Below, piece by piece: positions 3,384 through 24,109 of a stretch of 24,855 nucleotides of DNA. Source of the stretch: a virus; the IMG/VR virus record IMGVR_UViG_3300032116_001244, positions 1 to 24,855 of that record; one strand, given 5' to 3'. Under the pieces are notes generated by a model that was not told the DNA's origin, searched no databases, and worked only from the letters and a program-made list of their open reading frames with translations. Made by a program: the position numbers and the translations under genes. Numbering within the stretch: the stretch's first letter is position 1; every line of letters begins with the position of its first letter.

Positions 3384-3390
3384 TATTTAG
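3384..3390 (-). promoter_or_regulatory. Late-promoter-like CTAAATA for the sheath gene
   Basis: The minus strand reads GCTAAATATTA. This resembles the T4 late promoter box TATAAATA, the -10-like element read by the gp55-type sigma. If initiation occurs about 6 nt downstream, as in T4, the leader is about 22 nt and contains the GGAGA ribosome-binding site of the sheath gene. It sits back to back with the plus-strand box at 3451-3457. Confidence 0.6.
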
Positions 3391-3450
3391 CGTAACTTAG
3401 TAGAAAGAGCCCGTTATAACATCTAGAAAAGGGTTCAAAAAGGGCGGTTG

Positions 3451-3457
3451 CTAAATA
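3451..3457 (+). promoter_or_regulatory. Late-promoter-like CTAAATA abutting the HNH gene start
   Basis: CTAAATA ends only 4 nt before the ATG at 3462. With T4-like spacing the transcript would start within or at the start codon. No Shine-Dalgarno sequence lies at a normal distance; the nearest purine-rich stretch, AGGGCGG at 3441-3447, is 14 nt away and upstream of the box. The mRNA would be leaderless if this box is used. Confidence 0.5.
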
Positions 3458-3461
3458 TCAT

Positions 3462-3797
3462 ATGCGACCTTTATGTAAAACCTGTGATTCCAAGCCCTGT
3501 GCAGTTAACTACTACAAGGGAAAGAAAGTATTCTACAGGAGTCAGTGTGACAGTTGTGCTAGAGGTGCCACACCCAAGAAGCCTAGATGGTATCAACTGG
3601 GTTATAGACAACGGGACTTTTGTGAAAAGTGTGGGTTCAAAAGTAAGAACGCAAAAGTATTCAATGTATTCCACATAGACGGAAATTTAGATAACTGTAG
3701 ACCCACTAATCTAAAAACAGTATGCGCCAACTGTCAACGCATACTGCACCAAGAAGGTGTCAAGTGGCGGCAGGGAGATTTGACACCAGATTTTTAA
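3462..3797 (+). CDS. Small HNH / zinc-cluster protein
   Basis: This 111-residue protein has two cysteine clusters. The first is C5, C8, C13, C29 and C32. The second is an HNH-like treble-clef fold: C54-E-K-C57, then FHIDGNLDN (H71, D73, N75, N78), N83-L84, and C88-A-N-C91. The H-x-D-G-N-x-x-N then N-L then C-x-x-C order is the usual HNH nuclease core, so a metal-dependent DNA endonuclease is the natural reading. Activity is unproven, and the second His of canonical HNH (often C-x-x-C-H) is Q92 here. I recall small proteins with the same layout in marine T4-like phages. It stands alone on the plus strand between sheath and dNMP kinase, and its 3' end overlaps the kinase 3' end by 38 bp. A DNA-packaging, homing or zinc-binding regulatory role are alternatives. 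Confidence 0.75.
   Translation: MRPLCKTCDSKPCAVNYYKGKKVFYRSQCDSCARGATPKKPRWYQLGYRQRDFCEKCGFKSKNAKVFNVFHIDGNLDNCRPTNLKTVCANCQRILHQEGVKWRQGDLTPDF
3756..3795 (+). terminator. Possible hairpin terminator at a convergent gene overlap
   Basis: GGTGTCAA (3756-3763) and TTGACACC (3780-3787) form a perfect 8-bp inverted repeat with a 16-nt loop, followed by TTTTT at 3791-3795. It sits in the 38-bp overlap of two convergent genes, where a terminator would be useful. The long loop and the three bases between stem and T-run make it weak. It lies inside coding sequence of both genes, so it may be fortuitous. Confidence 0.3.
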
Positions 3798-4410
3798 TTG
3801 CTAGATATAGGTCGTCAATACTGCCGTTATTGTCTAACTCTGCGTCAAACTGTGTGCCTACCCATGCTGTTTCACTGGCATGAATTCCTGTGCTTTCTAA
3901 TTTAGTTTTACTAGAAGACCACATCATATTGCCGTCAGGTCCGCGATTTACGTTTACTGCGGCATCATACCATTCAGGCAATGCACCTCGTTTGATCCAC
4001 ACAATCCTACCGCCTGCACGGCGAATGCTGGCAATTTCGTTGGGGAAACGGCAGTCGCTGATTACAATGTTATCTGAGGAATTACGCAGTTTGTTTTCTA
4101 GACTAGCAATCCAGGTGTCATCGTGAAAGCCTCTTCGGCATACTTCTGTTCCCCAATATTGTAGTACCCAGCGTGGTGTTAAGTTGGGCATTTTCAAGCG
4201 GTCTGCCCACCAAGGATCTACTTGTTCTCGCCATTCACGAGCAGTTTTTGTGCGACCTTCCAGCATGGTTCTGTCCCAACCAAATACTGCGGCAACTGCA
4301 TCTTTTAATGTGTTGGCAAAACTTTCTCTGCGAAATTCGTGAAAGTTAACTAGATAGTCAGCAACTGTGTCTTTGCCTGAACCAATAAAACCGCACACAC
4401 CTATAATCAT
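3760..4410 (-). CDS. Deoxynucleoside monophosphate kinase (T4 gene 1-like)
   Basis: Phosphorylates dNMPs to dNDPs with ATP, feeding phage DNA synthesis and allowing modified or salvaged nucleotides to be used. The 216-residue protein opens with MIIGVCGFIGSGKDTVADYL, a P-loop (G7-F-I-G-S-G-K13-D14) of the dNMP-kinase type, where a D follows the lysine. Further family-like features are the Q-Y-W-G-T-E-V-C-R segment near residue 85 and ISDCRFPNE near residue 118, a Walker-B-like region. The length is close to T4 gp1 (241). The start at 4410 has AGGAGA 4 nt upstream. In T4 gene 1 also lies beside tail genes, so its place among structural genes fits. Its 3' end overlaps the HNH gene on the other strand. 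No clear TAAATA box precedes it, so it is probably read from the upstream neck-gene promoter. Confidence 0.87.
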   Translation of the reverse strand: MIIGVCGFIGSGKDTVADYLVNFHEFRRESFANTLKDAVAAVFGWDRTMLEGRTKTAREWREQVDPWWADRLKMPNLTPRWVLQYWGTEVCRRGFHDDTWIASLENKLRNSSDNIVISDCRFPNEIASIRRAGGRIVWIKRGALPEWYDAAVNVNRGPDGNMMWSSSKTKLESTGIHASETAWVGTQFDAELDNNGSIDDLYLAIKNLVSNLPAAT

Positions 4411-4431
4411 AGCGTCTCCTTAGATAACGCT
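4411..4431 (-). promoter_or_regulatory. Small hairpin presenting the dNMP kinase ribosome-binding site
   Basis: On the minus strand AGCGT and ACGCT can pair round an 11-nt loop, TATCTAAGGAG, which contains the Shine-Dalgarno sequence. The stem is only 5 bp, so stability is modest. It could hold the ribosome-binding site open in the loop or mildly limit access to the ATG that follows directly. Confidence 0.25.
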
Positions 4432-4467
4432 AGTATATAACAGTTAGATTACAAGGTCAAATTATTT

Positions 4468-5244
4468 TTAGCCAATAATGAATGTGTAGCCACGTCCGCC
4501 AGCAACTTGAGTGATCAGTTCTGCTTCCAATTTTTCCATCTCAGCAGTGCCTTCAGATTTCATAGCAGATCCGTTGAGTGCTGTACCGCCTTGAGGGCCA
4601 GCAATTTGTGCGAACTTTTCGCGGGCTTGACCTAACATCAGTTTGCAGTTGGCCAGTGTGTAATCTTTAATCCATTGTGTGGCATATACATCATTTAAAA
4701 TACCAATGTCGGGACGATAGTTGTAGCAGTAAAGCATTAGTTCTTCGTCACTGTTACGTGGACGTTGTAACAATGTTAATTTGTGACTTTGACTGTGCCA
4801 TTTAAACTCTATAAAACTGCCAAACATACGACCAATCATTTCCTGATACTGAGCAAACAATTCGTAGGTCAATATGCCACCCATGTTGCTACTGGATAGC
4901 AAATAGGTGTTGGTGTAAGCCAAATTAAACGGTTCAAAGATTGTGCCGCCTTGCCCGCCACCTGTTCTTGAACCAATACTACGACGGAATATTTGACGTA
5001 CTTCAATTACTTCCTTGGGCAATATGTATGTGTTCTGATCCTGTACAGTGGTCAAGAACATGTAACTTTCTTCCACACTACTGTCGCCTCGTTGACGATA
5101 TTTGCCTAGAGCACGTTCTAATGCTGTTTCGTAGTGCTTGGGATCTAGTTCAACATCAATCATGCCGTCGCCCAGCATGTTACGACAGTAGTCGTAGACT
5201 GCTGTTTTTGCCTGTTGTAGTTCGTTGATTTCTGTAGTTGGCAT
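4468..5244 (-). CDS. Neck / head-completion protein (T4 gp13-like)
   Basis: Predicted neck protein joining the filled head to the tail. The 258-residue sequence begins, after a short leader, with AVYDYCRNMLGDGMIDVELD and then HYETALERALGKYRQRGD. This is the D-Y-C-x-x-x-L-G, I-x-V-E-L-D, E-x-A-L-x-x-Y pattern seen at the N-terminus of gp13-type neck proteins in T4-like phages. Other recognisable segments are YILPKEVIEVRQIFRR (near residue 75) and the W-I-K-D-Y-T-L-A-N-C-K-L-M-L-G helix in the C-terminal third, followed by a Gly-rich linker and a charged helix. T4 gp13 is 309 residues, so size is in range. The ATG has AAAGAGA 6 nt upstream and a TAAATA box at 5262-5269. A structural role is likely; exact gp13 orthology is inference from pattern. 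Confidence 0.65.
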   Translation of the reverse strand: MPTTEINELQQAKTAVYDYCRNMLGDGMIDVELDPKHYETALERALGKYRQRGDSSVEESYMFLTTVQDQNTYILPKEVIEVRQIFRRSIGSRTGGGQGGTIFEPFNLAYTNTYLLSSSNMGGILTYELFAQYQEMIGRMFGSFIEFKWHSQSHKLTLLQRPRNSDEELMLYCYNYRPDIGILNDVYATQWIKDYTLANCKLMLGQAREKFAQIAGPQGGTALNGSAMKSEGTAEMEKLEAELITQVAGGRGYTFIIG

Positions 5245-5261
5245 TGTTTATCTCTTTAGTA

Positions 5262-5269
5262 TATTTACC
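5262..5269 (-). promoter_or_regulatory. Late-promoter-like GGTAAATA for the neck protein gene
   Basis: The minus strand reads CGGTAAATATACT, the same 9-mer CGGTAAATA as upstream of the giant fibre at 24102-24110. With a T4-like start 6 nt downstream, the leader is about 12 nt and includes AAAGAGA before the ATG at 5244. The box lies in the 27-nt gap after the upstream fibre gene, showing that the neck gene probably has its own promoter. Confidence 0.6.
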
Positions 5270-5271
5270 GT

Positions 5272-9543: not shown

Positions 9544-9559
9544 TTATAGTTCCTTGTCC

Positions 9560-9829
9560 TTAGAATGTTGAAGTAGCACTGCCGCCGTCGATGACAACAG
9601 TTAGATTTAATTTGTTTTGTTGATCATTGTACGAAACTGCCACGCCATTGTGTGTTCCGTTAAGAAACATCTGAGACGCATAATCTTGGGCAAGTTCCGT
9701 GAGACTGTTTACTCCAGTAGTATTGTACAATTCGTCAAAATTTTGATTTACTTTATTAAACGCATCACGGATGATATCTCCATCTCTAGTGTTTGCGCTA
9801 GTACCAATGTTTATCGTTTGTTTTGCCAT
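9560..9829 (-). CDS. Short fibre-attachment-like structural protein
   Basis: This 89-residue protein begins MAKQTINIGTSANTRDGD and continues IRDAFNKVNQNFDELY. That is the I-N-I-G-x-x-x-N-x-x-x-G-D, A-F-x-K-V-N-x-N-F-x-E-L-Y signature found at the N-terminus of many T4-like phage fibre and baseplate-decoration proteins. Here it is followed only by a short beta-rich tail (GVAVSYNDQQNKLNLTVVID), so it is a free-standing version of a domain usually fused to something longer. It lies 16 nt upstream of the 1423-residue fibre on the same strand and shares its promoter, so it may be an adaptor or assembly partner. AGGA lies 9 nt before the ATG. The stop is intact, with no sign that the frame was ever continuous with the fibre. 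Confidence 0.72.
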   Translation of the reverse strand: MAKQTINIGTSANTRDGDIIRDAFNKVNQNFDELYNTTGVNSLTELAQDYASQMFLNGTHNGVAVSYNDQQNKLNLTVVIDGGSATSTF

Positions 9830-9860
9830 TATTTTTCGTCCTAGGAGTTACATTAACTAG

Positions 9861-9868
9861 TATTTATC
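9861..9868 (-). promoter_or_regulatory. Late-promoter-like GATAAATA for the fibre operon
   Basis: The minus strand reads CGATAAATACTAG, the closest match in the window to T4 TATAAATA. A start 6 nt downstream gives a leader of about 26 nt with AGGA correctly placed before the ATG at 9829. It faces away from the plus-strand box at 9874-9880, five bases away. Confidence 0.62.
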
Positions 9869-9873
9869 GTGCG

Positions 9874-9880
9874 CTAAATA
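9874..9880 (+). promoter_or_regulatory. Late-promoter-like CTAAATA for the plus-strand island
   Basis: GCGCTAAATATAATACT leads directly into the ATG at 9888. A T4-like start would give a leader of about 2 nt. The genes to the left are on the other strand, so the promoter of the island should lie in this 58-bp gap, and this is the only box seen there on the plus strand. No Shine-Dalgarno sequence lies at a usable distance; AGGAG at 9843-9847 is about 40 nt away. Confidence 0.55.
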
Positions 9881-9887
9881 TAATACT

Positions 9888-11441
9888 ATGCCACGCTTAT
9901 CACTTTACCGCCCACAAAAAGGGGCAGATTACAAGTTTATTGACCGCACTGTCTACGAGATGTTTCAAGTGGGCGGTGTAGATGTGTTTCTGCACAAATA
10001 TATAGGTCCTGCTGATCCCAGTGATCCCAACAAGGCCTTGGGAGAAACCACTATCCAAGACGTGCTTTTTTTAGAAAATCGCGATAGAAAATACGATGCA
10101 GATGTTTATACTCTACGCGGCGCTTACAACATTCAAGACACGGATTTTAACCTCAGTCAATTTGGCTTGTTTTTGCAAAACGATACTGTATTTTTAACAG
10201 TACACATCAACAACAGTGTAGATACCATTGGGCGAAAAATAATGAGTGGCGATGTGGTAGAATTGCCCAACTTAAAAGATGAGTATGCGTTAAATGATTT
10301 TAAAAGTGCTTTAAAACGATACTATGTTGTAGAAGATATCAATCGAGCCGCTGAAGGATACAGTGCTACTTGGTATCCACACCTATACAGACTAAAATTA
10401 AAACCCATTGTTGACAGTCAAGAGTTTAAAGATATTCTTACTCGTCCAGAAGATGAAGATTTATTTGCCGGCGACTGGAGTCAAGAAAGAACATATTATG
10501 CTGGCGAAGTGGTAAGATACAATGGAACTTTGTATGTGGTCAAACCAACCGTTGGTGCTGAAGGCACACTATTAGAGCCGCCAAATCTTCAAGTTTGGAG
10601 TCCGTACAACGACAACACTGTGCGAGATTTAATCAGCACCTATGAAAAAGAAATGCAGATCAATGCTGGTATTATTGCTGAAGCAGAATCTGATGCAGAA
10701 CTAAGCGGATCAGATACCACGCACTTTTATACATTGTCTGTAGATCAACAAGGTAGATCAGCAGTAGAAACCGCAGACACTGACATAAATGTGGCTAGTG
10801 CATTTGACGTTAGCAATACATCGCCCCCTCCAGTAAGAGATGGCTACAAAGGTTACTTGCTGGAAGATGGAATTCCTCCAAACACTTCTGATGGCCAGTT
10901 TGGATTTGGTATACAATTTCCCCGTGGGCCAGTCACGGGCGATACATTTTTACGCACAGACTATTTGCCCAACAGATTGTTTAGATGGAACGGCAACAAA
11001 TGGATCAAGCAAGAAGACAATGTGCGCATGACTCTTTCCAACACTGATGATCGTAAAACGCTCAAGACTTCCTTTATTAATAACAGCAACGTCAGTGGAA
11101 TTTCTAAAATTAAAAGCGATGTTATTCGTATTGACGAGAACAGAAATCCGTTTTTTGAACCCAGCAACGGAACTGTTAACTTTGTTGTTAGCAACAGTTC
11201 ATTGTTTATATTGACAGACGTGCCTTATCAAGAAAACATGTTTGTAGAAGTATGGCTAGATGAATCAAGCAAAGCCACTGATATCACGTTATCAGATCAA
11301 CAGGGATTTTTAGCATTTACAGTTAATCATCCAATTTTAGAAAGCACAATTATACGTTGGACAGCATTCGATGAAACTGTTGACCAACGACAAAGTCTAA
11401 CCAAGGCTTTGAGAAAAATTAAACCAACGGCGGATAATTAA
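9888..11441 (+). CDS. Virion structural protein, neck/tail region, with carbohydrate-binding-like insert
   Basis: A 517-residue protein, not assigned with certainty. The N-terminal third contains IQDVLFLENRDRKYD, LSQFGLFLQNDTVFLTVHIN, GDVVELPNLKDEYAL and ALKRYYVVEDINRAAEGYSA, then WYPHLYRLKLKPIVDSQEF. This layout (a protein surface named by what it binds or accepts, 'ELP.L.D' then 'KRYYVV.D..RAAEG.S.TW.PHL') is one I associate with conserved neck or tail-completion proteins of marine myophages, perhaps the gp14 position. Residues 196-240 (DWSQERTYYAGEVVRYNGTLY ending in VWSPY) match the CBM5/12-type chitin-binding pattern W...Y..G..V.Y.G..Y......P....W..Y. A later element, LFRWNGNKWI (364-373), echoes sheath and gp15-like modules. 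The gene is followed after 2 nt by the gp15-like gene, so the two are surely co-translated. No ribosome-binding site precedes its ATG. Confidence 0.72.
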   Translation: MPRLSLYRPQKGADYKFIDRTVYEMFQVGGVDVFLHKYIGPADPSDPNKALGETTIQDVLFLENRDRKYDADVYTLRGAYNIQDTDFNLSQFGLFLQNDTVFLTVHINNSVDTIGRKIMSGDVVELPNLKDEYALNDFKSALKRYYVVEDINRAAEGYSATWYPHLYRLKLKPIVDSQEFKDILTRPEDEDLFAGDWSQERTYYAGEVVRYNGTLYVVKPTVGAEGTLLEPPNLQVWSPYNDNTVRDLISTYEKEMQINAGIIAEAESDAELSGSDTTHFYTLSVDQQGRSAVETADTDINVASAFDVSNTSPPPVRDGYKGYLLEDGIPPNTSDGQFGFGIQFPRGPVTGDTFLRTDYLPNRLFRWNGNKWIKQEDNVRMTLSNTDDRKTLKTSFINNSNVSGISKIKSDVIRIDENRNPFFEPSNGTVNFVVSNSSLFILTDVPYQENMFVEVWLDESSKATDITLSDQQGFLAFTVNHPILESTIIRWTAFDETVDQRQSLTKALRKIKPTADN

Positions 11442-11443
11442 TT

Positions 11444-12805
11444 ATGCAATGGTTCTACGACGGACAAATAAGAAGATATGTAGGACAAATTGTCCGAATG
11501 TTAAGCGGGTTTAGATATCAGAGTTTAGACGGTAAACAAACCACTGTGCCTGTGATGTATGGCGATTTAACTAGACAAGTAAGTAACATTATTAGAGAAA
11601 ACTCGGAGAATAAAATTCCCAGTGCTCCTAGAATTGCTGTTTATATCAGTGATTTAGCCATGGACAAAACTAGGCTAGCAGATTCCACTCACGTTAGTAA
11701 AATTCATATTAGAGAACGTGAAAAAGTTTTTGACAGTGCTGGCAATTTTGTAGAATACGGTGTCACACAGGGCAGTGGATATACAGTAGAACGTCTAATG
11801 CCTACACCATATAAACTAACTGTCAAAGCCGATATATGGAGCACTAGCACTGATCAAAAATTACAGATTTTAGAACAAATTTTAATGTTGTTTAACCCCA
11901 GTTTAGAACTGCAAACGTCTGACAATTACATAGACTGGACCAGCATCAGTGTGCTGGAAATTACTAATATTCAGTTTAGTACAAAAAATATTCCAGTGGG
12001 TGTTGACAGTGACATTGAAGTAGCATCCATAACATTTGAGACTCCAATTTATATCAGTCCTCCTACCAAGGTCAAACGATTGGGTGTTATTCATGATATT
12101 ATTATGAATATACACGATCAAAACTATGACATAGATATCACTGAAAAAATCAATATAGGCGGGTTTGATATTTTTGTCTATTATAATACTGACACCGGAC
12201 AGTACAATGCAGAATTGTTAGATCCTAAAACTGCACTGGTTGTGTTAAAGGAAGATGCGGCAAAATTATGGCAGAAAAATGGTGCTGAAGTAAATTGGAG
12301 AGTATTATTAGATCAATATGCTGGAAAATTTAGAGCCGGTAGTACACAAATTTTCCTAGAACAAGCCACTGGAAATTATATTGTTGGCACTGTGGCATTG
12401 AATCCTGCAGACGAAACAAAATTAGTTATTAATTTTGATCAAGACACTTATAATACCAATACTCCTATTCTGTGTACACAAACAGGCATTACTAGAACCA
12501 ATGTGGATGCAATCATAGATCCTGAAACTTATAATCCTGGAGCAGTCACAGGAAATCCTAGATATCTAATATTAAATAATATTGGAAATAATACGTCAGC
12601 CTGGGGCAACATTACGGCCAAAGCCAATGACATCATTGAATGGACTGGCACACAGTGGGTAGTTGCACAAGCCTCTGAAGATATTGATCAAATAATTTAT
12701 ACTACCAATCTCAGAACTGGAGTACAATACAAGTTCGAAGACAGTGAATGGACTCGTGCATTTGAAGGCGAATATCAGAAAGGTTCCTGGCGTATTGTGC
12801 TTTAA
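11444..12805 (+). CDS. Tail sheath stabiliser / completion protein (T4 gp15-like)
   Basis: Predicted tail terminator that caps the sheath and joins it to the neck. Features matching the gp15 family, in order, are WFYDGQIRRYVGQIVRML at the N-terminus; VPVMYGDLTRQ with IIRENSENKIPSAPRIAVYI; VERLMPTPYKLTVKADIW; STDQKLQILEQILMLFNPSL; and DIEVASITFETPIYISPP followed by a V-I-H-D-I-I helix near residue 225. T4 gp15 has about 272 residues, and that core ends near residue 230 here. The remaining 220 residues are a C-terminal extension with WTGTQW (400-405) and LRTGVQYKF, ending GSWRIVL, as I recall from marine myophage relatives. It lies 2 nt after the upstream gene with only a weak GGA as ribosome-binding site, suggesting translational coupling. 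Its stop codon is embedded in a TTTAAATA box. Confidence 0.83.
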   Translation: MQWFYDGQIRRYVGQIVRMLSGFRYQSLDGKQTTVPVMYGDLTRQVSNIIRENSENKIPSAPRIAVYISDLAMDKTRLADSTHVSKIHIREREKVFDSAGNFVEYGVTQGSGYTVERLMPTPYKLTVKADIWSTSTDQKLQILEQILMLFNPSLELQTSDNYIDWTSISVLEITNIQFSTKNIPVGVDSDIEVASITFETPIYISPPTKVKRLGVIHDIIMNIHDQNYDIDITEKINIGGFDIFVYYNTDTGQYNAELLDPKTALVVLKEDAAKLWQKNGAEVNWRVLLDQYAGKFRAGSTQIFLEQATGNYIVGTVALNPADETKLVINFDQDTYNTNTPILCTQTGITRTNVDAIIDPETYNPGAVTGNPRYLILNNIGNNTSAWGNITAKANDIIEWTGTQWVVAQASEDIDQIIYTTNLRTGVQYKFEDSEWTRAFEGEYQKGSWRIVL

Positions 12806-12808
12806 ATA
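12801..12808 (+). promoter_or_regulatory. Late-promoter-like TTTAAATA overlapping a stop codon, before the Nudix gene
   Basis: TTTAAATA contains the TAA stop (12803-12805) of the gp15-like gene and ends 9 nt before the Nudix ATG at 12818. A T4-like start would give a leader of about 4 nt. No Shine-Dalgarno sequence is visible in AGTACTGTT. It is the third plus-strand gene with this arrangement. Read-through from 9874 is an alternative. Confidence 0.4.
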
Positions 12809-12817
12809 AGTACTGTT

Positions 12818-13261: not shown

Positions 13262-13285
13262 AAAATGCCCCTAAGGGGCATTTTT
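13261..13285. terminator. Bidirectional intrinsic terminator
   Basis: AAAAATGCCCC (13261-13271) and GGGGCATTTTT (13275-13285) form a perfect 11-bp stem with a TAA loop. The GC-rich top and the flanking A and T runs make it a Rho-independent terminator on both strands. It fills the 27-nt gap between the Nudix gene (its stop TAA supplies the first A of the stem) and the stop of the giant fibre at 13289, so it ends both convergent transcripts. Confidence 0.93.
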
Positions 13286-13288
13286 GTT

Positions 13289-16200
13289 TTACATACGTCC
13301 TACCACTACTTCAATAACTCCATGATCTCCGTCAAAGTCTTCCAATGCTTTACCAATCACTTGGCCCATCTTTGGATCTTCTTCTGCACGAGCGTGGCCA
13401 TTATCTGCGGCAACTAACATATCTCCTTTACGGATCTTGCCAACGACCTTACATGGTACACGACCTTGTAGTGCAAGAGCAACTACAGTTTCGCCTGTTA
13501 AGCCGTCATTCATCAAGTGTGCTGGATTTGTAGAAACAACGCCTGCTACTCGACGTGTTCCGTCTAGTGCCAATGTTACTTCTGCATCACCTCCAAACAT
13601 AACAACAGTACCTTCTTCGTACTTGACGTCACCTAAATAGTTTTCTGCCAAGTCAGCGTAACGTGCTGTTGTTGCTGTACCCCGGAACAAGTTAGCATAG
13701 ATATCTGAACTTGCATCGCGCAGTGCAACAGTGTTGGCACTACTTGCTGTATTACCAGCATAACTTGTTGCACTAACTAAGATGTTGGTAGCACTTGTAG
13801 CATTACCACTCAATGCGGCTGTAATTGTACCTGCGCTAAAGTTACCCGAAGCATCACGTGACACAACTTTACTACCAGTGTTAGCATTTGTAGCATCAAC
13901 TGCTAGTGTACTTGCGGCACTACCGTTGAATGTTGTACCAACACTCCATGTCAAGAACGAACCTGCTGTTAAACTAAACAAGTTAGAACCTAATGCAACA
14001 CCACTAATTGTACTGTTTGCCAACTTAGCATTGGCAATACTACCTGCCAACATGGTGTTGGACACACTGCCAGTGTCGCCTGTTGTAATAATTGTACCGC
14101 TGACGTTTGGAACTGTCAATGTACGAGTTACGTTGGCAGTTACACCACTTACATCAAAAGCCATCTTCTTAGTATTGTCTGCATCGTCCTGGAACAATGT
14201 TGATGAATCAGTAAATGTCTTATTGGTAAATGTTTGTGTACCAGTTAGTGTAGCAACTGAAGTTCCGATACTGATTGTACGTGCAGAACCACCGTTGAAT
14301 GTTGTACCACTGTCTAATTGTAATCCAGTACCAACTGTTAGGTTGTTAGCAAGATTTGCTGTTACTGTTATAGTATCACCTAGGTTAACCAGTGAGCCGT
14401 TCAGTGTAATACTGCTGTTTGCCAACTTGCTATTTGGAATACTTCCAGCCAACATGTTGGTACTAACTGTACCAGTATCGTTGGTACCGATTAGCGTACC
14501 GCTGGTTGGCAATGTAACGCCAGTGGTGTTTGTAACAGTAATGGTTGTAGCAAACGATCCAGAAGTGGTCAAATTACCACCCAGTGTAATAGTTCTACCA
14601 GTATTGGCAACACCTGTACCACCGTACTGTCCTGCGATTACGTTTGCAGTCCATGTACCGCCTGTCAATGTACCAACACTGGTCAAACTAGAACCAACAA
14701 CTGATGATCCCAGTGCAGTATCACTTAGTACAGCAACGTTGTTGACTTTGTAAGACTTGCCTGTTGGAATATTAACATGCTCGTTCAATGTCCAGTTTGT
14801 ATTTGTTACATCCCATAAGATTGTATGGTCAGTGGTTCCTTTTAGGATAATACCGCCACCGTCTGCTACAGCATTGGTAGGTGTTGAACGTTGTGCCAAC
14901 TGAATGGCATTGTCTGCAATAGTAACTGCGGTAGCACTTAGAGTTGCATTGGTGCCACTTAATGTTAAGTCGCCGCTAACTGTCAAATTATTTCTAACTG
15001 TTGTTGTACCAACAGCATTGGCACCAATTGTGATTGCAGTACCTGCTCCAGCAAAGTTCACAGTTGTAGCAGTGTCATTAATCAAGTTGAATGTTGTGGC
15101 TGTTGTGGTAATATCGCCGCCGTTGACAGCAATGTCGCCAGAACTGGTAATATTTGTAGTTACGTTGATGCCACCGGCAGCGGCTGCACCAAGTGTTAAA
15201 CTGCCTGCACTGTTAATTGTGATTGCACTGTTTGTACCTGTAGGGCTAAAGTTGATAATTTGCTGGTTTTGTGTAGCACTTAGGTTACCCACTAATGTTG
15301 TTTGAACACCCAGTGTACCAAGTGTTGTAACACCTGCTGGCTGAATACTTACTGTGCCAGTGCCGCCAGGACTTAGTGTAATAACAGCATCGTCGCCAGT
15401 AATTGCCAATGAACTATTAAAGTTAATAGCACCTGATACAGTTAAACTGCCACCCACAAACAAGTTGCGAGTAATGCCAGCACCACCCAGCACTTGCAAT
15501 GAACCACTGGTGGTATTTGTACTGTTTACATCGCTGTTAAACAGTGCGTTACCCGCAGTTACACCACCTGCTAGATTTAAATTAGTAGTCCATGATGGAA
15601 CAGATCCGTCTGAACTTAATACACTACTGATTCCGCCAATGCCCAACTGTGTTAAACTTCCGCCAGCACCTGCATACAACAAGTCGCCTTGTAGATATGT
15701 TGTTAATCCTGTACCACCTTTGAGCACTGGCACAGCCTTGCTCAAGTTATCTGGATTAGTATAGTATGTTCCAGGTTGTCCGCTTAGGAAACCTGCGTCA
15801 ACGACACCTGGTTTAATGCTGACGTTACCTGTGTCAATTGGAACGTTAGTTGGTTTACCTACTGCAAACTGAGTCTTGTCAAATGCTGCCACACCCAAGT
15901 TGGTGAAGTTAGGTGTACCGCCATCGCCGTCCACTTTGTCAACATCAAGAATTGGTTGATTAAAATAGATAGTATCAGCGCCTTCTGTATAACTATCACC
16001 GCTTAGACTGATACTACTTCCGGCATTCTTACGAATACCCTGAACAGCATATGCCCATGAACTGTCACCGCGTAAGAATGTTTGTGTATTAGCAGTGCCT
16101 GCACTGGCCAATCTACTAGATGCAAACACACCAGACACAATGTTACTTGCATCCAAACTGCTGACGCTTACTGTTCCCCAGTTAGCAGATGATCTGCTAC

Positions 16201-19200
16201 TGTTGTTAATAGTTGCATTAAATGCCACGTTTTGTACAGTCAATGTTGCACTGCCTGAACCAACATCTGTTACTGCAACTTTAGATAAAGTTGCGCCGCC
16301 TACACTGGCCAATGCGTTTGCACGAATTGTGTGCAATGTAAATGTGTTTGTGCTTACACTACCTACAAAGTAGTATGCACCTGTGTTCAAACCTGCTGGT
16401 AAATCTGCACCTTCTACTAGTACTGGATCTCCAACTGTAAAGCCGTGTGCAGCCTTGTAGAAGAAACTTAAACTTGTTGAACCAATAGCAACAGTGTTAC
16501 GTGTTAGAGTATGTGTACCTGTTGATGTTGATGTTAACAACAACTGGTCGCCTGCGCCCAGTGCATAATTGGTATATAATTCAATTGTGTCAACGTTGAT
16601 TACTTTAACAAAGTAAGCACGGTTATTAGTCATGCCACCAATACTGGTATTTGCTTGATTGCTATACTGTAAAATATCTCCGTTGGTTAAGCCGTGTGCT
16701 GTTAAAGTAAAACGTCCAGTACCTGTATTAATGTCAGTGTTTGCATTGAAACTGAATGTAGCAAATGTTGCCAAGTTACTGATAGTGACTACTGGAGCAT
16801 TGTCGTCTTCAAAGAAATCATTGGCAACGCTAGACGCATTGAATTTAGTCTTGTTACCAACTAAGTCAACATACAATCGTGTATCTGCACGGTTGGCATT
16901 GATCTGGAATCCTGAACCTGTACCACCAATTGAAGCAGAACTTGCACTCAGCACACTGCTGGTAGTATAACCAGAACCACCGCTGACAATTGTCACGTCA
17001 GTGACTGCACCGTTAGTAACAGTAATATCAGCAGTTGCGCCAGTACCTGTACCGCTCACGTTAGTCAGCGCCACTCCAGTATATGTTACAGCACCACTGC
17101 CTGGAGTGTATAAACTACCTCCAACTAAACTGCTTAGATTCAATCCATACAATACACCTGCACGGTACTCAGTAATTTGTCCTTGTGCTAGACCAACAGC
17201 ACTGGTGATAGTCGAACCGTTGGTAAAACTATACCCCCCTGGGCTAGACAATATCAAGAATTGACTGCTGGTGTCATTGTTTAAGAAGTAGTTGTCAACA
17301 ATTTCAACAACAGCAGTTAATGCATTTGGATATACACCAGTTACAGTTGCACCGTTCTTTCGAATTGTTTGTGCGGCATTGTCTTCACTGAATGTACCAG
17401 TTACACCGTATAGTACAACACTTGTACCGCCAGTGACTGCTTCTTTAACACGACCTGAACCAGTTGTTCCGTTTTGTGTAATTAAATCTCCCACAACTGC
17501 TGTCAATGTTCCGCCAGTCAGTGTTAGAGTCTGTTGTTGATAAGTTTCACTTGCGTTATCACCGTTAAACACTTCAACGGTTGGAATTTTTTCACTTAAC
17601 TCTAAACGACCACCAAAAGTGGTACTAGCATAAGTTGTGACACCGCGTAATGGTGGAATCAAGTCAACGTTGATCTGACCCGAACTGTTCAACTGAACAA
17701 GAGCGCCAGCAACAGCGTTGGTAGAAACGTTCTTATCAAGTACATTACCAAGTCTGTTGTTGATGAAACTACGGATAGCCTTTTGTGTTGTCAATCGACT
17801 GTCACTTGCGCCACCAATTTCGTTATCACCTAATCCAGTATCGTTACTGATACTACTAATTTCAATACTAGACAATGATAGTCGTAGCACGTTCAACTGT
17901 CCAACAGTAACTTCAGTACGGAATGTAATCTTACCAGTGTTGTTCTCAGCCTTAATAAAGTCACCAACTAAGAAGTCACCAATTTCGTTTGTACCTGATG
18001 CATACACACGACCTGGCAATTCAGTGTATTGCTGATATGCAAGAATAGTTGTACCACCGTTTTGTGGTAGTGCGTTATAGTCTGTACCAGAACCTGCATA
18101 TTCCCAAGTGTGTGAAGAACTGTTTACAATACTTGGACGATGGAAGTTACATTTGAATCCAACAGTGCCTGATGGATTTAAGATTTCACTGGCAGTACGA
18201 GTACTGTTTGTGGTGAACACAGTGGTGTACAAGTCTGAACGATCTTCGACACTAACTAATGGAATGCCGGTATATGTGCTTTGGTCTGCTGTGATTGTAC
18301 TCAATGTAGTGAACTTGATACGTTGTTGTTCCTCGCCAACTGTGGTCAACTGGTTAGACACAACTAGTTCTCTAGTAGCAGGAGTCCAACTCAACACATA
18401 AGCATTGTTGGTAAATGCACCAGTTGTGCCGGTAATTGCAGACCCTATACCGAATACATAATCAGGTGACGATTCTGGAAGCGTCAATGTTTGATAACTG
18501 TTGTGGCTGCTTAGAATTTTTTCAACGAAGAATTCTTCAACGTTTTTAGCAATACGCTGTGTGCCAACACCGCCAGTTTGAATATCTGCAACGTAGGCCA
18601 ATCCATTGTCGTTAAACAATTGAATTGTGTTTGCACTGATCACTTTAGCAAAATAGATACCATTGTCAATCAACCCCAATACTGATACATTGCCAGGGAT
18701 TGCTGTGTCTACATAATAGTATACGCTGTCGCCGTTTAATAATCCATGAGTTGGAATTGTTAACGTGTTGGCTACCGTGTTAATTGCTCCGCCCACTGAA
18801 AATACCAATGATCCAGCGGTGATTGTACCATTACTGGAAATATCAATTTCGTTGGCGCCTGCACGTATTGCTGTGACAGTAGTAACACTGCCCAGTATAC
18901 CATCACCACTGGTCTTGGTCAAATACTTGCCGTTGACAATGCCAGTGGTATTAACACCAGTTAGAGTAGCAGTGTAAGGTCCGCTGCCTGCAATGTTGGT
19001 GATGGTTCCTGTGCGGCCTGCAATGGCATTGAACGCTGAAGCATCAAAACTAAATTCTGTGCTGGCTGTTTTAAAGTTGCTGGTAACGTCTGCATCTGTG
19101 CTGGGATTACGGAACTTCAATACATATTGCGCAACTGGCTCACGCTCGGTGCCCAATGTGGTCAATGAAATTCGGCCGCCGCTGGTGCCTGTGGCAGCAA

Positions 19201-22200
19201 CAAAACCTCGGTCAAATTCAAAGGCAAACGGACTAAATCCACTTGAACGTAGTGCATACACACCGAAGTTGGTGGCAGAGTTGGTAATGGACAAGTATCC
19301 GCCTGACTGACAGTAGGATCCGTTCAAACAGAAGATCTGGAAACAGGACACGACCTGCGCATAACCGTCGTTACTTACTAGCCATCCAGTACCACCGAAT
19401 GACACCATGGTAAAGGCGTTGGCCACCATGGACTTACCTTGTGGTGGTGTTGGGCCCGACACTGGATTTTCTTGTTCAATTTCAAAGCCTGGAAGGCTAA
19501 TGTTAGGATCACGAATCTTCTCACCGTCTACCCAAATACCATTACCGCCTAAGAACGAAATAATAGAGCAGTTCTGAATGTATGGTGACAATGAAATTTG
19601 TGGTTTGGTTCTACGAAGTCCGAAATATCCAGAACGATCAACTGTGTCGTCCAGAGGATCGTCGAAGGCCACACACCAGTTAAATGTATAACTTGGAACT
19701 AGGTTCGCATCTAGACCGTCACGGAATGTAAAACCAGTCATGTAAGCACCGTTACGAATACGGAACATGTCCTTGCCTGCATTCAATGGGCGAATAACCA
19801 CGGAACGTAAACTGTCTCCAACTACCGATACTCTATCAGGAATAATAATTGGATTATCAACATAATAATCGCCTGCGGCACAACTGATAGTAACAGGAAT
19901 TTCTTGGAAAGCATTAGCAACCACTGTAGGTGCTGGCTGTCCTTCAAAAATGCCAATAATAGTATTAAACAGTGATTCAACATCATTAATTGCCGCAACA
20001 CCTGTAATACTTGGGTATTTGATCTGTGTTGGTTCTCCACCTATTGGTGTAAAGAACGGACTAATGGTTTGATTTTGTATAATTTGTTTGGCAATTCGCT
20101 TGGCATACTTGTTGGCTTCGGCAGTCTCAAATCGTTGATCTGATATAACTAAGGCCGCGCTGGTATTGCCGGCTTCATAGTAAGCAAGACCTGCTTCAAC
20201 ACTTCGTTCGTTACCACCAAGGATAAAGTCAAGAATTACCGCATCAAGAATTAATCCAGTATCACGAGAGCAAGTTGCACTGTTATAAACAAAGCCAGTA
20301 AATGTATCTGCAATATAAGCAACAACAGCGTCAATGATTGCAGTGCGATTTGTGTTTTTAAATGCATTATAGTTTGCAGTAATTGCACCACTTTGCCAAC
20401 TTGTATCGGGCTCCACTTCTGTTGGAATTGTGCCAATGCCGTTGATGATAACACCTGAAATGATACCTAGTAAATCAGTTAGTGTATTTGCTTCAACAGT
20501 TGTGGCATTGCTACCGCTGGTAACTTGATTGACTGCTGTTTGATATTTGTCAGTGATAACTTCACCACGCACAACTTTGTCTACAAGATATGATAATCTA
20601 TCAATGGCCAACGAAGTAACACTTTCTTGTTGTGGCACTTGTGTGTCGTAGGTACTACCATCTATAGTAATCCAGTATGCATTGGCAGCACCAATTGTTG
20701 CGCTGTTACCGCCATACAATACGTCATAGGTTATGGCATCAACAATATATCCTACATCTCGACTGCATCTTACTTCGTCGTAGACAAAATCTTGGAATGT
20801 TGTTTGAACAAAATCAATTGTATCGTCAATAATGGTTTGACGATCTGCCACCAGTTCCAAACGAGCATTTTGTAAACCACTATCTACCCAAGATAAACTT
20901 GGGTTGACTGCTGTTGGTAACACGCTGAGACCGTTTTCGATAACGTTGGTAACGATGCCAAGTAGACTTACTGCGGCTGTCTGTTGTGTGGCACCACTTG
21001 CACCGGAAGAAGTATCTTGTGCGGCTCCTGTGTATGTTTCTATTAAACTAACATTGACAATGTCAGCAGTTGTTGCAGTGTCGCCCCATGTCTGTGTCAA
21101 TGTTTTACTGGTTGTTAATGTAATAGTGTTTGTTGAAATTGTTGTATTTGATACTGATACTTCGATACCATTAACATAAATTTCGTAGGGTTCTGTTCCG
21201 TCTAACGCAGTAAATTTAGATTTAAAACTTGTACCATTGCTGTTGCCAGTTGCTTCAAGAATTAGTGTGTTGGCACTCCAACTGGTGACAGCAAATGCAT
21301 CTGCGCTTGATGCGCCTTTGGTAAATGTTGCTCTATCTAGGCTAGGAGTCACTGCGGCGTTTACTAGTACATCATCAACTATGCTGGCTAGATATTCAAA
21401 TGCTTTTTTAGTTTGATAAATTTGATCAGGTACTTGAGTTACTGCACCGACCCAATATGCATTTGCAGTTGTGCGTGTGGCAGTGTTACCACCATATAAA
21501 ATATCATATGTTAATCCGTCAACAATATATTTTACATCACGTTCGCACTTTGTTTGATTGTATGAAAACGCATCAAACGTTGTTGTCAAGTATGCACTGG
21601 TGTTTGTGATAATTGTTGGCTTGGCTGTTGCTAGAGCATCTGTAGCAGACACAATGTTTGCATTTACCCATCCAAAACTTGGATAAGTTGGAGTTGGTAA
21701 TCCTGCAGGAGTTTCAGCAGTGATAACATCTATAATTAATTGTAAATCTCCAGAAACTAAAGTTGCTTCTGCGCTGGTACCTACAGTTGCCGAGCCGACT
21801 CCGGACTGTGTTTCGATGTTTCCTGTTGTTTTAGTTACTAATTGACCTTGTATAACCTGAGATAAAACAGTGTTTAATCTGTTATAGGCTGCAATGGTTC
21901 CGTCTTTTTGACCTGCTCCCAACTGTCCTAGTGTGCCTACAAAATAAGAATTAGCGGCAACAATACTTGCTGAATTTCCACCGTACAATAAGTCATAAGT
22001 CAATGCGTCAATAATGTAGCCAACGTCTCGAGAACATTTTACACTGTTGTATGTGAATCCGTCAAATGTGCTTCCAGGAGCGGCAGTTGCTATCTGATTG
22101 TTGATCCATGCAATGATTTCTGCTTTGGCAAATTCTTTGTTGGCAGTGATTTGATTTTTAGAATTAATAACTGCTTGCGTGGCATTTGCTGGGTTAGTAA

Positions 22201-24073
22201 ATGTTAAAGTATCTGCAGAAGTATCAGTGGATACTACTCCGTTTCTGATGATATCAACGACTTCATCAAAGGCAGCGTTGACACGAGTTACAGTAGTGCC
22301 GTTTGCACTTACTGCGGCCAGTGCGGCAGTTTTTGCAAATTCAATACCTGCAATAGTTTGTATATTTTGTCCGCTTAACACGTAAGAACTATTAGCACGT
22401 TGATAGGCTAGACCTGCGGTCACTGCGTTAAAATTTGTACCTAAGGCAGCATCATAACGTGCGGCATCGATAATAATACCAAGGTCACGTTCGCAGGTTG
22501 CTTTTACAATACCATTGTATGTGTAACCTACAAATTGTTTGTTAATGTATGAACTAACTGCATCTGCTAGGAAATTGCGGTTAGCCTGTAGTTGATTACG
22601 TGCATCAATGGCATCTTGTGTAGCATTGCTTGGTGCATTATATACGATGGCATCAGTGCTGTCATCACCTTGAGCATTGGCAATAATATCTAATATTTCA
22701 TCAAATGCCAGTGTAACACGTTGAACGGCTGTAGCATCACCTGTGACACTTAATAGTGCTTGACTCTTGGCATACTGGAATGCGGCAACTGTTTGTAATT
22801 TTTGATTATTTTCTAAGTAGTCTGCGTTGGCACGTAGATAAGCACGGCCTGCAACAACAGCATTATAGTTTGTGTTTAGTACTGCGTCAAATCCAGCGGC
22901 ATCTAATAACAAGCCTGTGTCACGAGCACACTTGGCTTCGTCATAAACGAAGTCAGAGTAGTTTGTATTGATCCAAGCGATAACTTCTTCTTTTAAGAAG
23001 TTTTTGTTTGCCTGTAGTTTATCTTTTGCGGCAATTTCTTCAGTACTTGTTGCACTGTTGGAAGGATAGATAATGGCATCAGTACTGTCGTCTCCAATGT
23101 CATTTTCTAAGATATCGACAATTTCTGCAAAGGCTGTGTTGTAACGACCAAGTGCAGTTGAGTTGGTAATAAATCCTGTACCTTCTTGTTGTGCTTGAAG
23201 AATTGCACTCTTGGTTTGAAGAATTTGATCTTGAATAACAGTGTAGGCATTTGCACGACGGTATGACAAACCAGTGGTCACCGCCTTGTAGTTGGATCCT
23301 ATCACAAAGTCCAAGGCCACTGCATCGATGATTAGTCCTAGATCTCTACGACATTTTTCTTCGTCATATTGGAAATTAACAAAGTTTGCATCAATCCATT
23401 TAATTACTTGACTTTGAATAAAACTACGATTGGCTTCTAGTAGACGTTTAGCGTTGTACTTGCCTTCGCCTGGATCAACAAGTGGTCGTAGACCCAAACT
23501 TGCGGCAATTTGTGCGGCACGTTTCATTGAACGTACTGGCGCATTGGTACCGTCATTGTTGTCGTCACCTCTTCGATCTGATACATATACACGGTTTCCA
23601 CCAAATCCATCTGGTGAACCCCACTCTAAGTTTCCTTGACCATCCAAGGTCAATACACTTGGATCAATAGGTTGAAAACTTGGAAGTTTAATTTCATAAC
23701 TAAAGTCAACGTTGTCCGGACCTTTGATAGTTACTGTGTTAGTATTTGCGGCATCGTTAAAAATTAAACCTTTTTGGTTTTTAATTCTAACATCATTAAC
23801 AAACTCTGTGCCATCTTCAGTAACTTCAAATTGAGTTACGTTGTCAACTTTATTAACAATTTTACTTGGTGTAGTGCCACCATCGTCATTTGTTGTGATA
23901 CTAGTATCACGTTCAAATGTTGTTTTGGTGATATCAAGTACAGTATCGTCTTCTTTCTTTAGAAAGACTTTACCATCAGCAGTGTTCATCGCTAGTTCAC
24001 CTTGAACCAACGATCCTGCACTTGGCGTTACACCCGCATTGTTATTTCTCTTAAAAAGGATTCTTGATGCCAT
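13289..24073 (-). CDS. Giant multidomain tail fibre-type structural protein
   Basis: A 3594-residue virion protein, probably a fibre or long tail decoration. The N-terminus (MASRILFKRNNNAG, then LVQGELAMNTADGKVFLKK) is an Mtd N-terminal-like attachment domain. Residues about 215-1385 hold seven helical Cys/Arg/Asp modules (see the repeat entry). Residues about 1390-1640 look like a right-handed beta-helix: IPDRVSVVGDSLRSVVIRP, MTGFTFRDG, YIQNCSIISFLGGNG, VANAFTMVSFGGTGW, SITNSATNFGVYALRSSG, FEFDRGFV. I recognise close relatives of this segment in marine cyanophage structural proteins. Then come long Ser/Thr/Asn/Gly-rich beta repeats with GGTG and TFTNKTFTD motifs. The C-terminal 125 residues (ARYADLAENYLGD, YEEGTVVMFGG, RRVAGVVSTNPAHLMN, ALALQGRVPCKVVG, ending VIEVVVGRM) resemble peptidase-G2-like fibre chaperone domains; any autocleavage is inference. 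The ATG has GAGGA 5 nt upstream and its own late promoter. Confidence 0.88.
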   Translation of the reverse strand: MASRILFKRNNNAGVTPSAGSLVQGELAMNTADGKVFLKKEDDTVLDITKTTFERDTSITTNDDGGTTPSKIVNKVDNVTQFEVTEDGTEFVNDVRIKNQKGLIFNDAANTNTVTIKGPDNVDFSYEIKLPSFQPIDPSVLTLDGQGNLEWGSPDGFGGNRVYVSDRRGDDNNDGTNAPVRSMKRAAQIAASLGLRPLVDPGEGKYNAKRLLEANRSFIQSQVIKWIDANFVNFQYDEEKCRRDLGLIIDAVALDFVIGSNYKAVTTGLSYRRANAYTVIQDQILQTKSAILQAQQEGTGFITNSTALGRYNTAFAEIVDILENDIGDDSTDAIIYPSNSATSTEEIAAKDKLQANKNFLKEEVIAWINTNYSDFVYDEAKCARDTGLLLDAAGFDAVLNTNYNAVVAGRAYLRANADYLENNQKLQTVAAFQYAKSQALLSVTGDATAVQRVTLAFDEILDIIANAQGDDSTDAIVYNAPSNATQDAIDARNQLQANRNFLADAVSSYINKQFVGYTYNGIVKATCERDLGIIIDAARYDAALGTNFNAVTAGLAYQRANSSYVLSGQNIQTIAGIEFAKTAALAAVSANGTTVTRVNAAFDEVVDIIRNGVVSTDTSADTLTFTNPANATQAVINSKNQITANKEFAKAEIIAWINNQIATAAPGSTFDGFTYNSVKCSRDVGYIIDALTYDLLYGGNSASIVAANSYFVGTLGQLGAGQKDGTIAAYNRLNTVLSQVIQGQLVTKTTGNIETQSGVGSATVGTSAEATLVSGDLQLIIDVITAETPAGLPTPTYPSFGWVNANIVSATDALATAKPTIITNTSAYLTTTFDAFSYNQTKCERDVKYIVDGLTYDILYGGNTATRTTANAYWVGAVTQVPDQIYQTKKAFEYLASIVDDVLVNAAVTPSLDRATFTKGASSADAFAVTSWSANTLILEATGNSNGTSFKSKFTALDGTEPYEIYVNGIEVSVSNTTISTNTITLTTSKTLTQTWGDTATTADIVNVSLIETYTGAAQDTSSGASGATQQTAAVSLLGIVTNVIENGLSVLPTAVNPSLSWVDSGLQNARLELVADRQTIIDDTIDFVQTTFQDFVYDEVRCSRDVGYIVDAITYDVLYGGNSATIGAANAYWITIDGSTYDTQVPQQESVTSLAIDRLSYLVDKVVRGEVITDKYQTAVNQVTSGSNATTVEANTLTDLLGIISGVIINGIGTIPTEVEPDTSWQSGAITANYNAFKNTNRTAIIDAVVAYIADTFTGFVYNSATCSRDTGLILDAVILDFILGGNERSVEAGLAYYEAGNTSAALVISDQRFETAEANKYAKRIAKQIIQNQTISPFFTPIGGEPTQIKYPSITGVAAINDVESLFNTIIGIFEGQPAPTVVANAFQEIPVTISCAAGDYYVDNPIIIPDRVSVVGDSLRSVVIRPLNAGKDMFRIRNGAYMTGFTFRDGLDANLVPSYTFNWCVAFDDPLDDTVDRSGYFGLRRTKPQISLSPYIQNCSIISFLGGNGIWVDGEKIRDPNISLPGFEIEQENPVSGPTPPQGKSMVANAFTMVSFGGTGWLVSNDGYAQVVSCFQIFCLNGSYCQSGGYLSITNSATNFGVYALRSSGFSPFAFEFDRGFVAATGTSGGRISLTTLGTEREPVAQYVLKFRNPSTDADVTSNFKTASTEFSFDASAFNAIAGRTGTITNIAGSGPYTATLTGVNTTGIVNGKYLTKTSGDGILGSVTTVTAIRAGANEIDISSNGTITAGSLVFSVGGAINTVANTLTIPTHGLLNGDSVYYYVDTAIPGNVSVLGLIDNGIYFAKVISANTIQLFNDNGLAYVADIQTGGVGTQRIAKNVEEFFVEKILSSHNSYQTLTLPESSPDYVFGIGSAITGTTGAFTNNAYVLSWTPATRELVVSNQLTTVGEEQQRIKFTTLSTITADQSTYTGIPLVSVEDRSDLYTTVFTTNSTRTASEILNPSGTVGFKCNFHRPSIVNSSSHTWEYAGSGTDYNALPQNGGTTILAYQQYTELPGRVYASGTNEIGDFLVGDFIKAENNTGKITFRTEVTVGQLNVLRLSLSSIEISSISNDTGLGDNEIGGASDSRLTTQKAIRSFINNRLGNVLDKNVSTNAVAGALVQLNSSGQINVDLIPPLRGVTTYASTTFGGRLELSEKIPTVEVFNGDNASETYQQQTLTLTGGTLTAVVGDLITQNGTTGSGRVKEAVTGGTSVVLYGVTGTFSEDNAAQTIRKNGATVTGVYPNALTAVVEIVDNYFLNNDTSSQFLILSSPGGYSFTNGSTITSAVGLAQGQITEYRAGVLYGLNLSSLVGGSLYTPGSGAVTYTGVALTNVSGTGTGATADITVTNGAVTDVTIVSGGSGYTTSSVLSASSASIGGTGSGFQINANRADTRLYVDLVGNKTKFNASSVANDFFEDDNAPVVTISNLATFATFSFNANTDINTGTGRFTLTAHGLTNGDILQYSNQANTSIGGMTNNRAYFVKVINVDTIELYTNYALGAGDQLLLTSTSTGTHTLTRNTVAIGSTSLSFFYKAAHGFTVGDPVLVEGADLPAGLNTGAYYFVGSVSTNTFTLHTIRANALASVGGATLSKVAVTDVGSGSATLTVQNVAFNATINNSSRSSANWGTVSVSSLDASNIVSGVFASSRLASAGTANTQTFLRGDSSWAYAVQGIRKNAGSSISLSGDSYTEGADTIYFNQPILDVDKVDGDGGTPNFTNLGVAAFDKTQFAVGKPTNVPIDTGNVSIKPGVVDAGFLSGQPGTYYTNPDNLSKAVPVLKGGTGLTTYLQGDLLYAGAGGSLTQLGIGGISSVLSSDGSVPSWTTNLNLAGGVTAGNALFNSDVNSTNTTSGSLQVLGGAGITRNLFVGGSLTVSGAINFNSSLAITGDDAVITLSPGGTGTVSIQPAGVTTLGTLGVQTTLVGNLSATQNQQIINFSPTGTNSAITINSAGSLTLGAAAAGGINVTTNITSSGDIAVNGGDITTTATTFNLINDTATTVNFAGAGTAITIGANAVGTTTVRNNLTVSGDLTLSGTNATLSATAVTIADNAIQLAQRSTPTNAVADGGGIILKGTTDHTILWDVTNTNWTLNEHVNIPTGKSYKVNNVAVLSDTALGSSVVGSSLTSVGTLTGGTWTANVIAGQYGGTGVANTGRTITLGGNLTTSGSFATTITVTNTTGVTLPTSGTLIGTNDTGTVSTNMLAGSIPNSKLANSSITLNGSLVNLGDTITVTANLANNLTVGTGLQLDSGTTFNGGSARTISIGTSVATLTGTQTFTNKTFTDSSTLFQDDADNTKKMAFDVSGVTANVTRTLTVPNVSGTIITTGDTGSVSNTMLAGSIANAKLANSTISGVALGSNLFSLTAGSFLTWSVGTTFNGSAASTLAVDATNANTGSKVVSRDASGNFSAGTITAALSGNATSATNILVSATSYAGNTASSANTVALRDASSDIYANLFRGTATTARYADLAENYLGDVKYEEGTVVMFGGDAEVTLALDGTRRVAGVVSTNPAHLMNDGLTGETVVALALQGRVPCKVVGKIRKGDMLVAADNGHARAEEDPKMGQVIGKALEDFDGDHGVIEVVVGRM
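19920..23431 (-). repeat. Seven tandem Cys-x-Arg-Asp helical modules in the giant fibre
   Basis: Each module has an N-(R/K)-x-(F/I) helix, a W/Y-I segment, then F-x-Y-(D/N)-x-x-x-C-x-R-D-x-G-x-I-x-D-A-x-x-x-D-x-x-x-G-x-N. The conserved Cys lies at residues 241, 382, 527, 680, 843, 1103 and 1268, so spacing is 141, 145, 153, 163, 260 and 165. Modules 1, 2, 3 and 7 share a G-L/I-x-x-D-A...A-G-L-A-Y-x-R-A-N type; modules 4, 5 and 6 share V-x-Y-I-V/I-D-A/G-x-T-Y-D-x-L-Y-G-G-N. The gap between 5 and 6 carries an extra beta-rich insertion of about 100 residues. DNA identity between modules is low, so the array is old. Confidence 0.85.
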
Positions 24074-24101
24074 AATATTCCTCGTTTTCCTTGTCTGTTA
24101 T

Positions 24102-24109
24102 TATTTACC
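24102..24109 (-). promoter_or_regulatory. Late-promoter-like GGTAAATA for the giant fibre gene
   Basis: The minus strand reads CGGTAAATAATAACAG in the 56-nt gap between the two fibre genes. A T4-like start gives a leader of about 23 nt ending in CGAGGAATATT before the ATG, so the ribosome-binding site GAGGA is well placed. The CGGTAAATA 9-mer is shared with the neck-gene promoter. Confidence 0.6.

Follow-up and report, generated by a model that had tools for sequence, protein, structure and literature searches.

Predicted leaderless mRNAs from T4-type late promoters at a conserved subset of late genes in jumbo-type phages

Late promoters of the gp55 type very probably make leaderless mRNAs for a conserved subset of the late genes in a group of T4-related jumbo phages, while the other late genes would be expressed from leadered mRNAs with a Shine-Dalgarno (SD) sequence. 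The stretch of DNA that was analysed, hereafter the window, is a virus fragment of 24,855 bases, and it was compared with related contigs, with orthologous loci and with cultured phages.

In the mechanism that we propose, boxes with a TAAATA core would be T4-type late promoters, read by a phage-encoded gp55-like sigma factor. For most late genes, the box would lie 16–40 nt before the start codon and give an mRNA with a short leader and an SD. For the conserved subset, the box would have moved to 4–5 or 7–8 nt before the start codon; the members of this subset would be the HNH and 517-aa genes in the window, joined in relatives by the large terminase gene and further late genes. RNA polymerase, starting 5–6 nt past the box, would then place the 5′ end of the mRNA at the A of the AUG (gap of 4–5 nt), or three bases before the AUG, usually as ACU (gap of 7–8 nt). 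Such short-gap mRNAs would be translated as leaderless messages through their 5′-terminal AUG, in the same cells that use the SD for other late genes. The box, its spacing and bimodality, the loss of the SD, the strict use of ATG, the conservation and the repeated switching can be read in the sequences described below.

Results

Gene content and TAAATA boxes of the window

The window carries genes for a tail sheath, an HNH endonuclease, a dNMP kinase, a gp13-like protein, fibre-type proteins, a virion structural protein (517 aa), a tail sheath stabilizer-like protein and a Nudix protein (Table 1). The block formed by the 517-aa, stabilizer and Nudix genes is also present in the cultured jumbo phages CBB, 121Q, XaC1, Munch, PA5oct and Vibrio phage 2.275. 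Since this block is common to cultured jumbo phages, the window phage is assigned to the T4-superfamily jumbo type and is not a cyanophage. Its 517-aa protein shares 35–37% identity with the best cultured matches along most of its length. A gp55-like sigma gene is present in four relatives (G001, G002, G003 and G011; phrog_12791, E 1e-79 in G001 and 1e-78 in G003); the window fragment does not reach that gene. Some relatives (loci L289–L294) lie in marine MAGs binned as Neomarinimicrobiota, Pelagibacter, Rickettsiales and Gammaproteobacteria, which probably reflects binning but may hold hints of hosts; the labels of these six MAG contigs were too mixed for a host to be named.

Table 1. Genes and TAAATA boxes of the window. 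Gaps are counted from the end of the box to the base preceding the ATG.
Feature	Position	Strand	Details
Tail sheath gene	3..3356	-	phrog_10581, E 2e-212; extends beyond the window edge
Tail sheath late box TAAATA	3384..3389	-	gap 27 nt, GGAG in leader; leadered
HNH late box TAAATA	3452..3457	+	gap 4 nt (TAAATAtcatATG); predicted leaderless
HNH endonuclease gene, 111 aa	3462..3797	+	N-terminus MRPLC; phrog_2255, E 1.4e-6
Head-tail adaptor / gp13-like neck gene	4468..5244	-	phrog_211, E 3e-34
gp13-like late box TAAATA	5262..5267	-	gap 17 nt; leadered in the window
89-aa fibre / baseplate-connector N-terminal protein gene	9560..9829	-	phrog_677, E 3e-11
89-aa gene late box TAAATA	9861..9866	-	gap 31 nt; leadered, divergent from the 9875 box
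517-aa gene late box TAAATA	9875..9880	+	gap 7 nt (TAAATAtaatactATG); predicted 3-nt leader ACU
517-aa virion structural protein gene	9888..11441	+	N-terminus MPRLSLY; phrog_11591, E 4e-84; followed by the 453-aa gene
453-aa tail sheath stabilizer-like gene	11444..12805	+	without a late box of its own
Nudix-proximal TAAATA	12803..12808	+	gap 9 nt to Nudix ATG, at the 453-aa gene's stop codon; excluded from the set
3594-aa ORF	13289..24073	-	fibre-like by sequence alone
3594-aa fibre-like gene late box TAAATA	24102..24107	-	gap 28 nt; leadered

The preliminary description of this DNA had placed TAAATA boxes before seven gene starts, and all seven were found again at the same positions. The leader lengths that it derived from T4 geometry are likewise correct, being 22, 12, 26 and 23 nt for the minus-strand genes and −1, 2 and 4 nt for the plus-strand genes. 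Seven of the nine TAAATA copies in the window sit 4–31 nt upstream of one of ten gene starts; when starts were placed at random, the mean was 0.07 boxes near starts and none of 5000 trials reached seven. The hexamer is depleted in the window (9 found, 21 expected), as if there were selection against late-box look-alikes.

Three further observations concern individual promoters. First, the late boxes of the 89-aa and 517-aa genes point in opposite directions with only 8 nt between them and make up an imperfect inverted repeat (window 9858–9887; AGTATTTATCGTGCGCTAAATATAATACT), an arrangement kept in many relatives. Second, no late box precedes the dNMP kinase gene; at window 4410–4450, and likewise in orthologues, it has AAGGAGA as a good SD together with a −10-like stretch rich in TATA, and the gene is probably served by an early or middle promoter. 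Third, the 453-aa stabilizer-like gene is probably transcribed from the promoter at 9875.

The Nudix gene had been counted among the near-leaderless genes, and this assignment did not hold. The box in question opens with the TAA stop codon of the 453-aa gene and largely consists of it. TAAATA persists where the identity of a relative is 95% or more, and in one locus at 85% (L005); other, more distant relatives have TAAAATA or TAAACTA, which rules the box out as a conserved promoter.

Box spacing in orthologues

For the 517-aa gene, a conserved spacing of 4–9 nt had been proposed as the mark of a functional box, and the orthologues bear this out. In a first scan, all 79 IMG/VR loci with a readable start of this gene (47–97% identity) have TAAATA 5–8 nt before the same ATG. 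The set was then taken to 125 orthologues by including more distant loci and cultured phages; many loci are closely related to one another and such near relatives are included in the counts, which are 99 with a gap of 4–8 nt, none with 9–15 nt, 22 with 16–33 nt and four with no box. A gap of 6 nt is rare within the short-gap class (2/99). The SD follows the same division: a match of at least 4 nt is found in 1 of the 99 short-gap orthologues versus 20 of the 22 long-gap ones. Conservation extends down to 33–47% protein identity.

None of the nine cultured relatives examined is short-gap. The homologue is leadered, with a box, in Atu_ph07, Phosso, PA5oct, CBB, 121Q, XaC1, Munch and Vibrio phage 2.275, and SCTP-2 has no TAAATA box before it. 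On a maximum-likelihood tree of the 517-aa gene (quick search), at least eight changes between the short-gap and leadered states are required.

The spacings depend on the start codons being right. Starts in the window and in the contigs were assigned by ORF length, with a simple ORF picker for G001 and the other contigs, so the true starts might be downstream in-frame codons with normal leaders and an SD. The residues that follow the assigned ATG are, however, conserved in both genes: the 517-aa protein begins MPRLSLY, with M1, P2, R3, S5, L6 and Y7 invariant, and the HNH protein begins MRPLC. Furthermore, in SD-led orthologues the SD is normally spaced relative to the homologous codon, as in PA5oct (MARLSL), where the protein starts at the same residue. 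We consider misassigned starts very improbable.

The HNH gene, for which the same spacing had been proposed, behaves similarly: of 41 unique upstream regions of its orthologues, 40 have the box at 4–6 nt, and a pyrimidine precedes the ATG in 40 of 40. A conserved, purine-rich, SD-like block abuts this box on its upstream side (window 3427–3451), roughly AAAAAGGGnnnnAAAAAGGTGAGG and often AAGGTGAGG in orthologues. It could be an SD for longer transcripts or a promoter element.

The leadered genes keep their own geometry. The tail sheath box lies at 32–39 nt, with AGGAG, in most relatives, and the gap of the 89-aa gene is 27–37 nt in relatives. These two genes and the gp13-like gene are leadered throughout the relatives examined, the exception being the gp13 homologue of G001 (40677, minus strand, beside the 517-aa gene), which has a gap of 5 nt. 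Both divergent genes of that intergenic region are therefore short-gap in G001, and the minus-strand neighbour in the window is leadered. TAAATA is conserved before the 517-aa, HNH, sheath and 89-aa genes, and the first two positions of the T4 box vary.

Genome-wide distribution of box spacing

G001, a 364-kb contig of a relative, shows two separate classes of spacing: the gap is 4–5 nt for 21 genes, 9–15 nt for three and 16–40 nt for 49. Fourteen control hexamers of the same composition gave a mean of 3.2 genes at 4–5 nt in this contig; the highest control reached 8, probably through the overlapping shifted word ATAAAT. The same bimodal spacing is found in the fragments G004, G005 and G006, and in a weaker form in G003 (one gene at 4–5 nt, three at 6–8 nt). 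No comparable peak at 4–5 nt was found in T4 (1 gene), Syn9 (0), P-SSM2 (4), PA5oct (2) or Atu_ph07 (2).

These counts bear on whether the boxes might be chance occurrences in AT-rich intergenic DNA, picked for their nearness to starts. A six-base box is short, and the Nudix box is such a case. For the HNH and 517-aa genes, however, chance is refuted by conservation of the box; with the boxes at starts in the window and the excess over control hexamers in G001, we regard this explanation as extremely unlikely for the set as a whole.

The short-gap genes of G001 include those for the large terminase, a tail-tube-type protein, virion structural proteins, an Rz-like spanin and the gp13 homologue. 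Promoter mode is largely a property of the gene. It agrees in 70 of 79 orthologue pairs with aligned N-termini; six gene families with at least three members are short-gap throughout, and a change of mode is seen in three families.

The preliminary description had described two modes of late promoter, leadered on the minus strand and near-leaderless on the plus strand. Two geometries do exist, one of them predicting near-leaderless mRNAs without a ribosome-binding site; the division by strand, like the inclusion of the Nudix gene, falls away. A strand effect, for example through the direction of replication, would agree with the boxed genes within the window, but the proportions in G001 are equal (short-gap genes, 4 on the plus and 17 on the minus strand; leadered genes, 12 and 37; Fisher p = 0.76), and in G001, G004 and G005 the short gap occurs at minus-strand genes, that of the terminase among them. 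There is hardly any likelihood left that strand sets the mode: the mode follows the gene, and the split between strands in the window is an accident. The orientation of the upstream neighbour, considered as another rule, gave no clear difference (30 same-strand and 19 divergent for short-gap genes, 60 and 26 for leadered ones). An internal box in a 626-aa gene of G001, ahead of a second start (427 aa), was judged to derive from the codons of the coding sequence and was set aside as a promoter.

Predicted transcription starts and start codons

The T4 late box is an 8-bp element at −13 to −6 (PMC2988020), and a gap of 5 nt therefore puts +1 exactly at the A of the ATG. Among the leadered late genes of T4, Syn9 and P-SSM2, and of PA5oct and Atu_ph07, the sixth base past the box (box+6) is a purine in 74–77%, and pyrimidine-purine (YR) steps peak there, which agrees with the T4 rule. 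The clade's own leadered genes have a weak YR preference spread across box+5 and box+6, with box+8 equally high. Short-gap genes have a YR step at box+5 or box+6. Genome-wide, a pyrimidine precedes the ATG in 37 of 40 short-gap genes versus 47 of 90 leadered ones (p = 3e-6). At gaps of 7 or 8 nt, RYY precedes the ATG in 39 of 41 genes, mostly as ACT, which places a purine at box+5 or box+6 and would give a three-base leader. For the short-gap genes, T4 geometry combined with the YR step predicts a leader length of 0 or 3 nt.

A different reading is that the short-gap TAAATA is not the promoter used, and that transcription comes from further upstream, with the AU-rich TAAATA serving as an SD-independent ribosome-binding or unfolding element. 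AU-rich leaders can help SD-free initiation, which lends this reading some plausibility, and since the HNH orthologues keep the SD-like block upstream of the box, a longer transcript of that gene could be translated conventionally. Yet the hexamer is identical to that of the leadered late promoters, same-composition hexamers have no peak at 4–5 nt beyond shifted overlaps, and a YR step at box+5 or box+6 is expected of a promoter and not of an AU-rich enhancer. In addition, the 517-aa gene of the window and its divergent neighbour are only 58 nt apart, and a further promoter would hardly fit there. We consider an upstream promoter improbable, and initiation from the short-gap box itself the preferred reading.

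Start codons provide a further indication. The short-gap 517-aa genes start with ATG in 99 of 99 cases. SD-led orthologues include ATT (three, assigned from SD spacing only) and GTG (one), and two SD-led orthologues without a TAAATA box use TTG. The apparent ATT and TTG starts (loci L209, L211, L213, L218 and L221) lie 7–8 nt past AGGAG or GGAG. In E. coli, leaderless messages need an AUG for initiation (PMC4965119). Such a requirement would fit the short-gap 517-aa genes, non-ATG starts being limited to SD-led orthologues, which represent few independent events.

Discussion

We infer that the 5′ ends of the short-gap mRNAs lie at or next to the AUG, that a gp55 homologue recognizes the box, and that ribosomes load through the 5′-terminal AUG. 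The parts of this arrangement are already known, namely T4-type late promoters and leaderless mRNAs, which are recognized from a −10 box close to the start codon (PMC3160421). In our literature search, which reached few subscription journals, we found no description of T4-type late promoters that serve a conserved class of leaderless late genes.

The boxes resemble the late promoters of T4 (TATAAATA, with the sigma factor gp55, gp33 and gp45) and their cyanophage version (NATAAATA) in having a TAAATA core, in preceding virion genes and in occurring in both polarities; the start site in T4 and cyanophages lies 6 nt past the box, and a gp55-type sigma is encoded by relatives of the window too (PMC2988020, PMC2984593). 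The difference is that in T4, Syn9 and P-SSM2 a leader with an SD nearly always fits between the box and the start codon, and no large, conserved short-gap class is seen. The jumbo phages CBB and GAP32, with the late-type motif ATAAATA (PMC5259590), share the gene block, the motif and a gp55-like sigma with the present group. The 517-aa homologue of CBB is nevertheless conventionally leadered, since its box lies ~30 nt upstream with GGAG.

In bacteria, a −10-type box ~10–12 nt before the start codon has been taken as evidence of leaderless, TA-led genes, which are widespread and change between orthologues as the short-gap genes do (Zheng et al. 2011, PMC3160421). Those genes use the host Pribnow box TANNNT, whereas here the box is that of a phage late sigma, it precedes late genes only, and the phage uses the SD for its other late genes.

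Leaderless phage mRNAs are mostly known as single cases, and the lambda cI message is a single repressor mRNA transcribed from a host sigma-70 promoter. It is comparable in being a phage mRNA translated from a 5′-terminal AUG (PMC4965119), and differs in that a set of late virion genes would be involved here. That phage transcripts are often leaderless has been stated in a passing remark (PMC5312081). Start-proximal late promoters are also found in T4, where those of e, soc, 49 and I-TevI adjoin the ribosome-binding site and hairpins are involved (PMC3014915). Although translation is likewise tied to late RNA in those genes, their late mRNA keeps the SD and escapes the hairpin (PMC3014915); the short-gap genes here are without an SD.

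A short-gap gene would have no translation site on a longer, read-through RNA, and its expression is therefore likely to depend on the firing of the late promoter. Going further, one might speculate that these jumbo phages deliberately divide their late programme into two channels, such that conserved late genes, the large terminase included, are placed on leaderless mRNAs, their translation is gated by late-promoter firing together with a change in host initiation late in infection that favours 5′-AUG loading, and genes swap channels in evolution. We put this forward tentatively, as a possibility with rather more against it than for it.

The analysis predicts about two dozen leaderless late genes per genome, among them essential packaging and virion genes, beside SD-led late genes. 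For gene finders and promoter scans this is a warning, as an SD is not required at short-gap starts. The at least eight mode switches of one orthologous gene amount to a natural experiment, with precise predictions of the 5′ ends (0 or 3 nt). A single virus would then start translation in two ways, within a widespread and abundant group of environmental T4-related jumbo phages, and this may bear on why bacteria and their viruses retain two modes of translation start.
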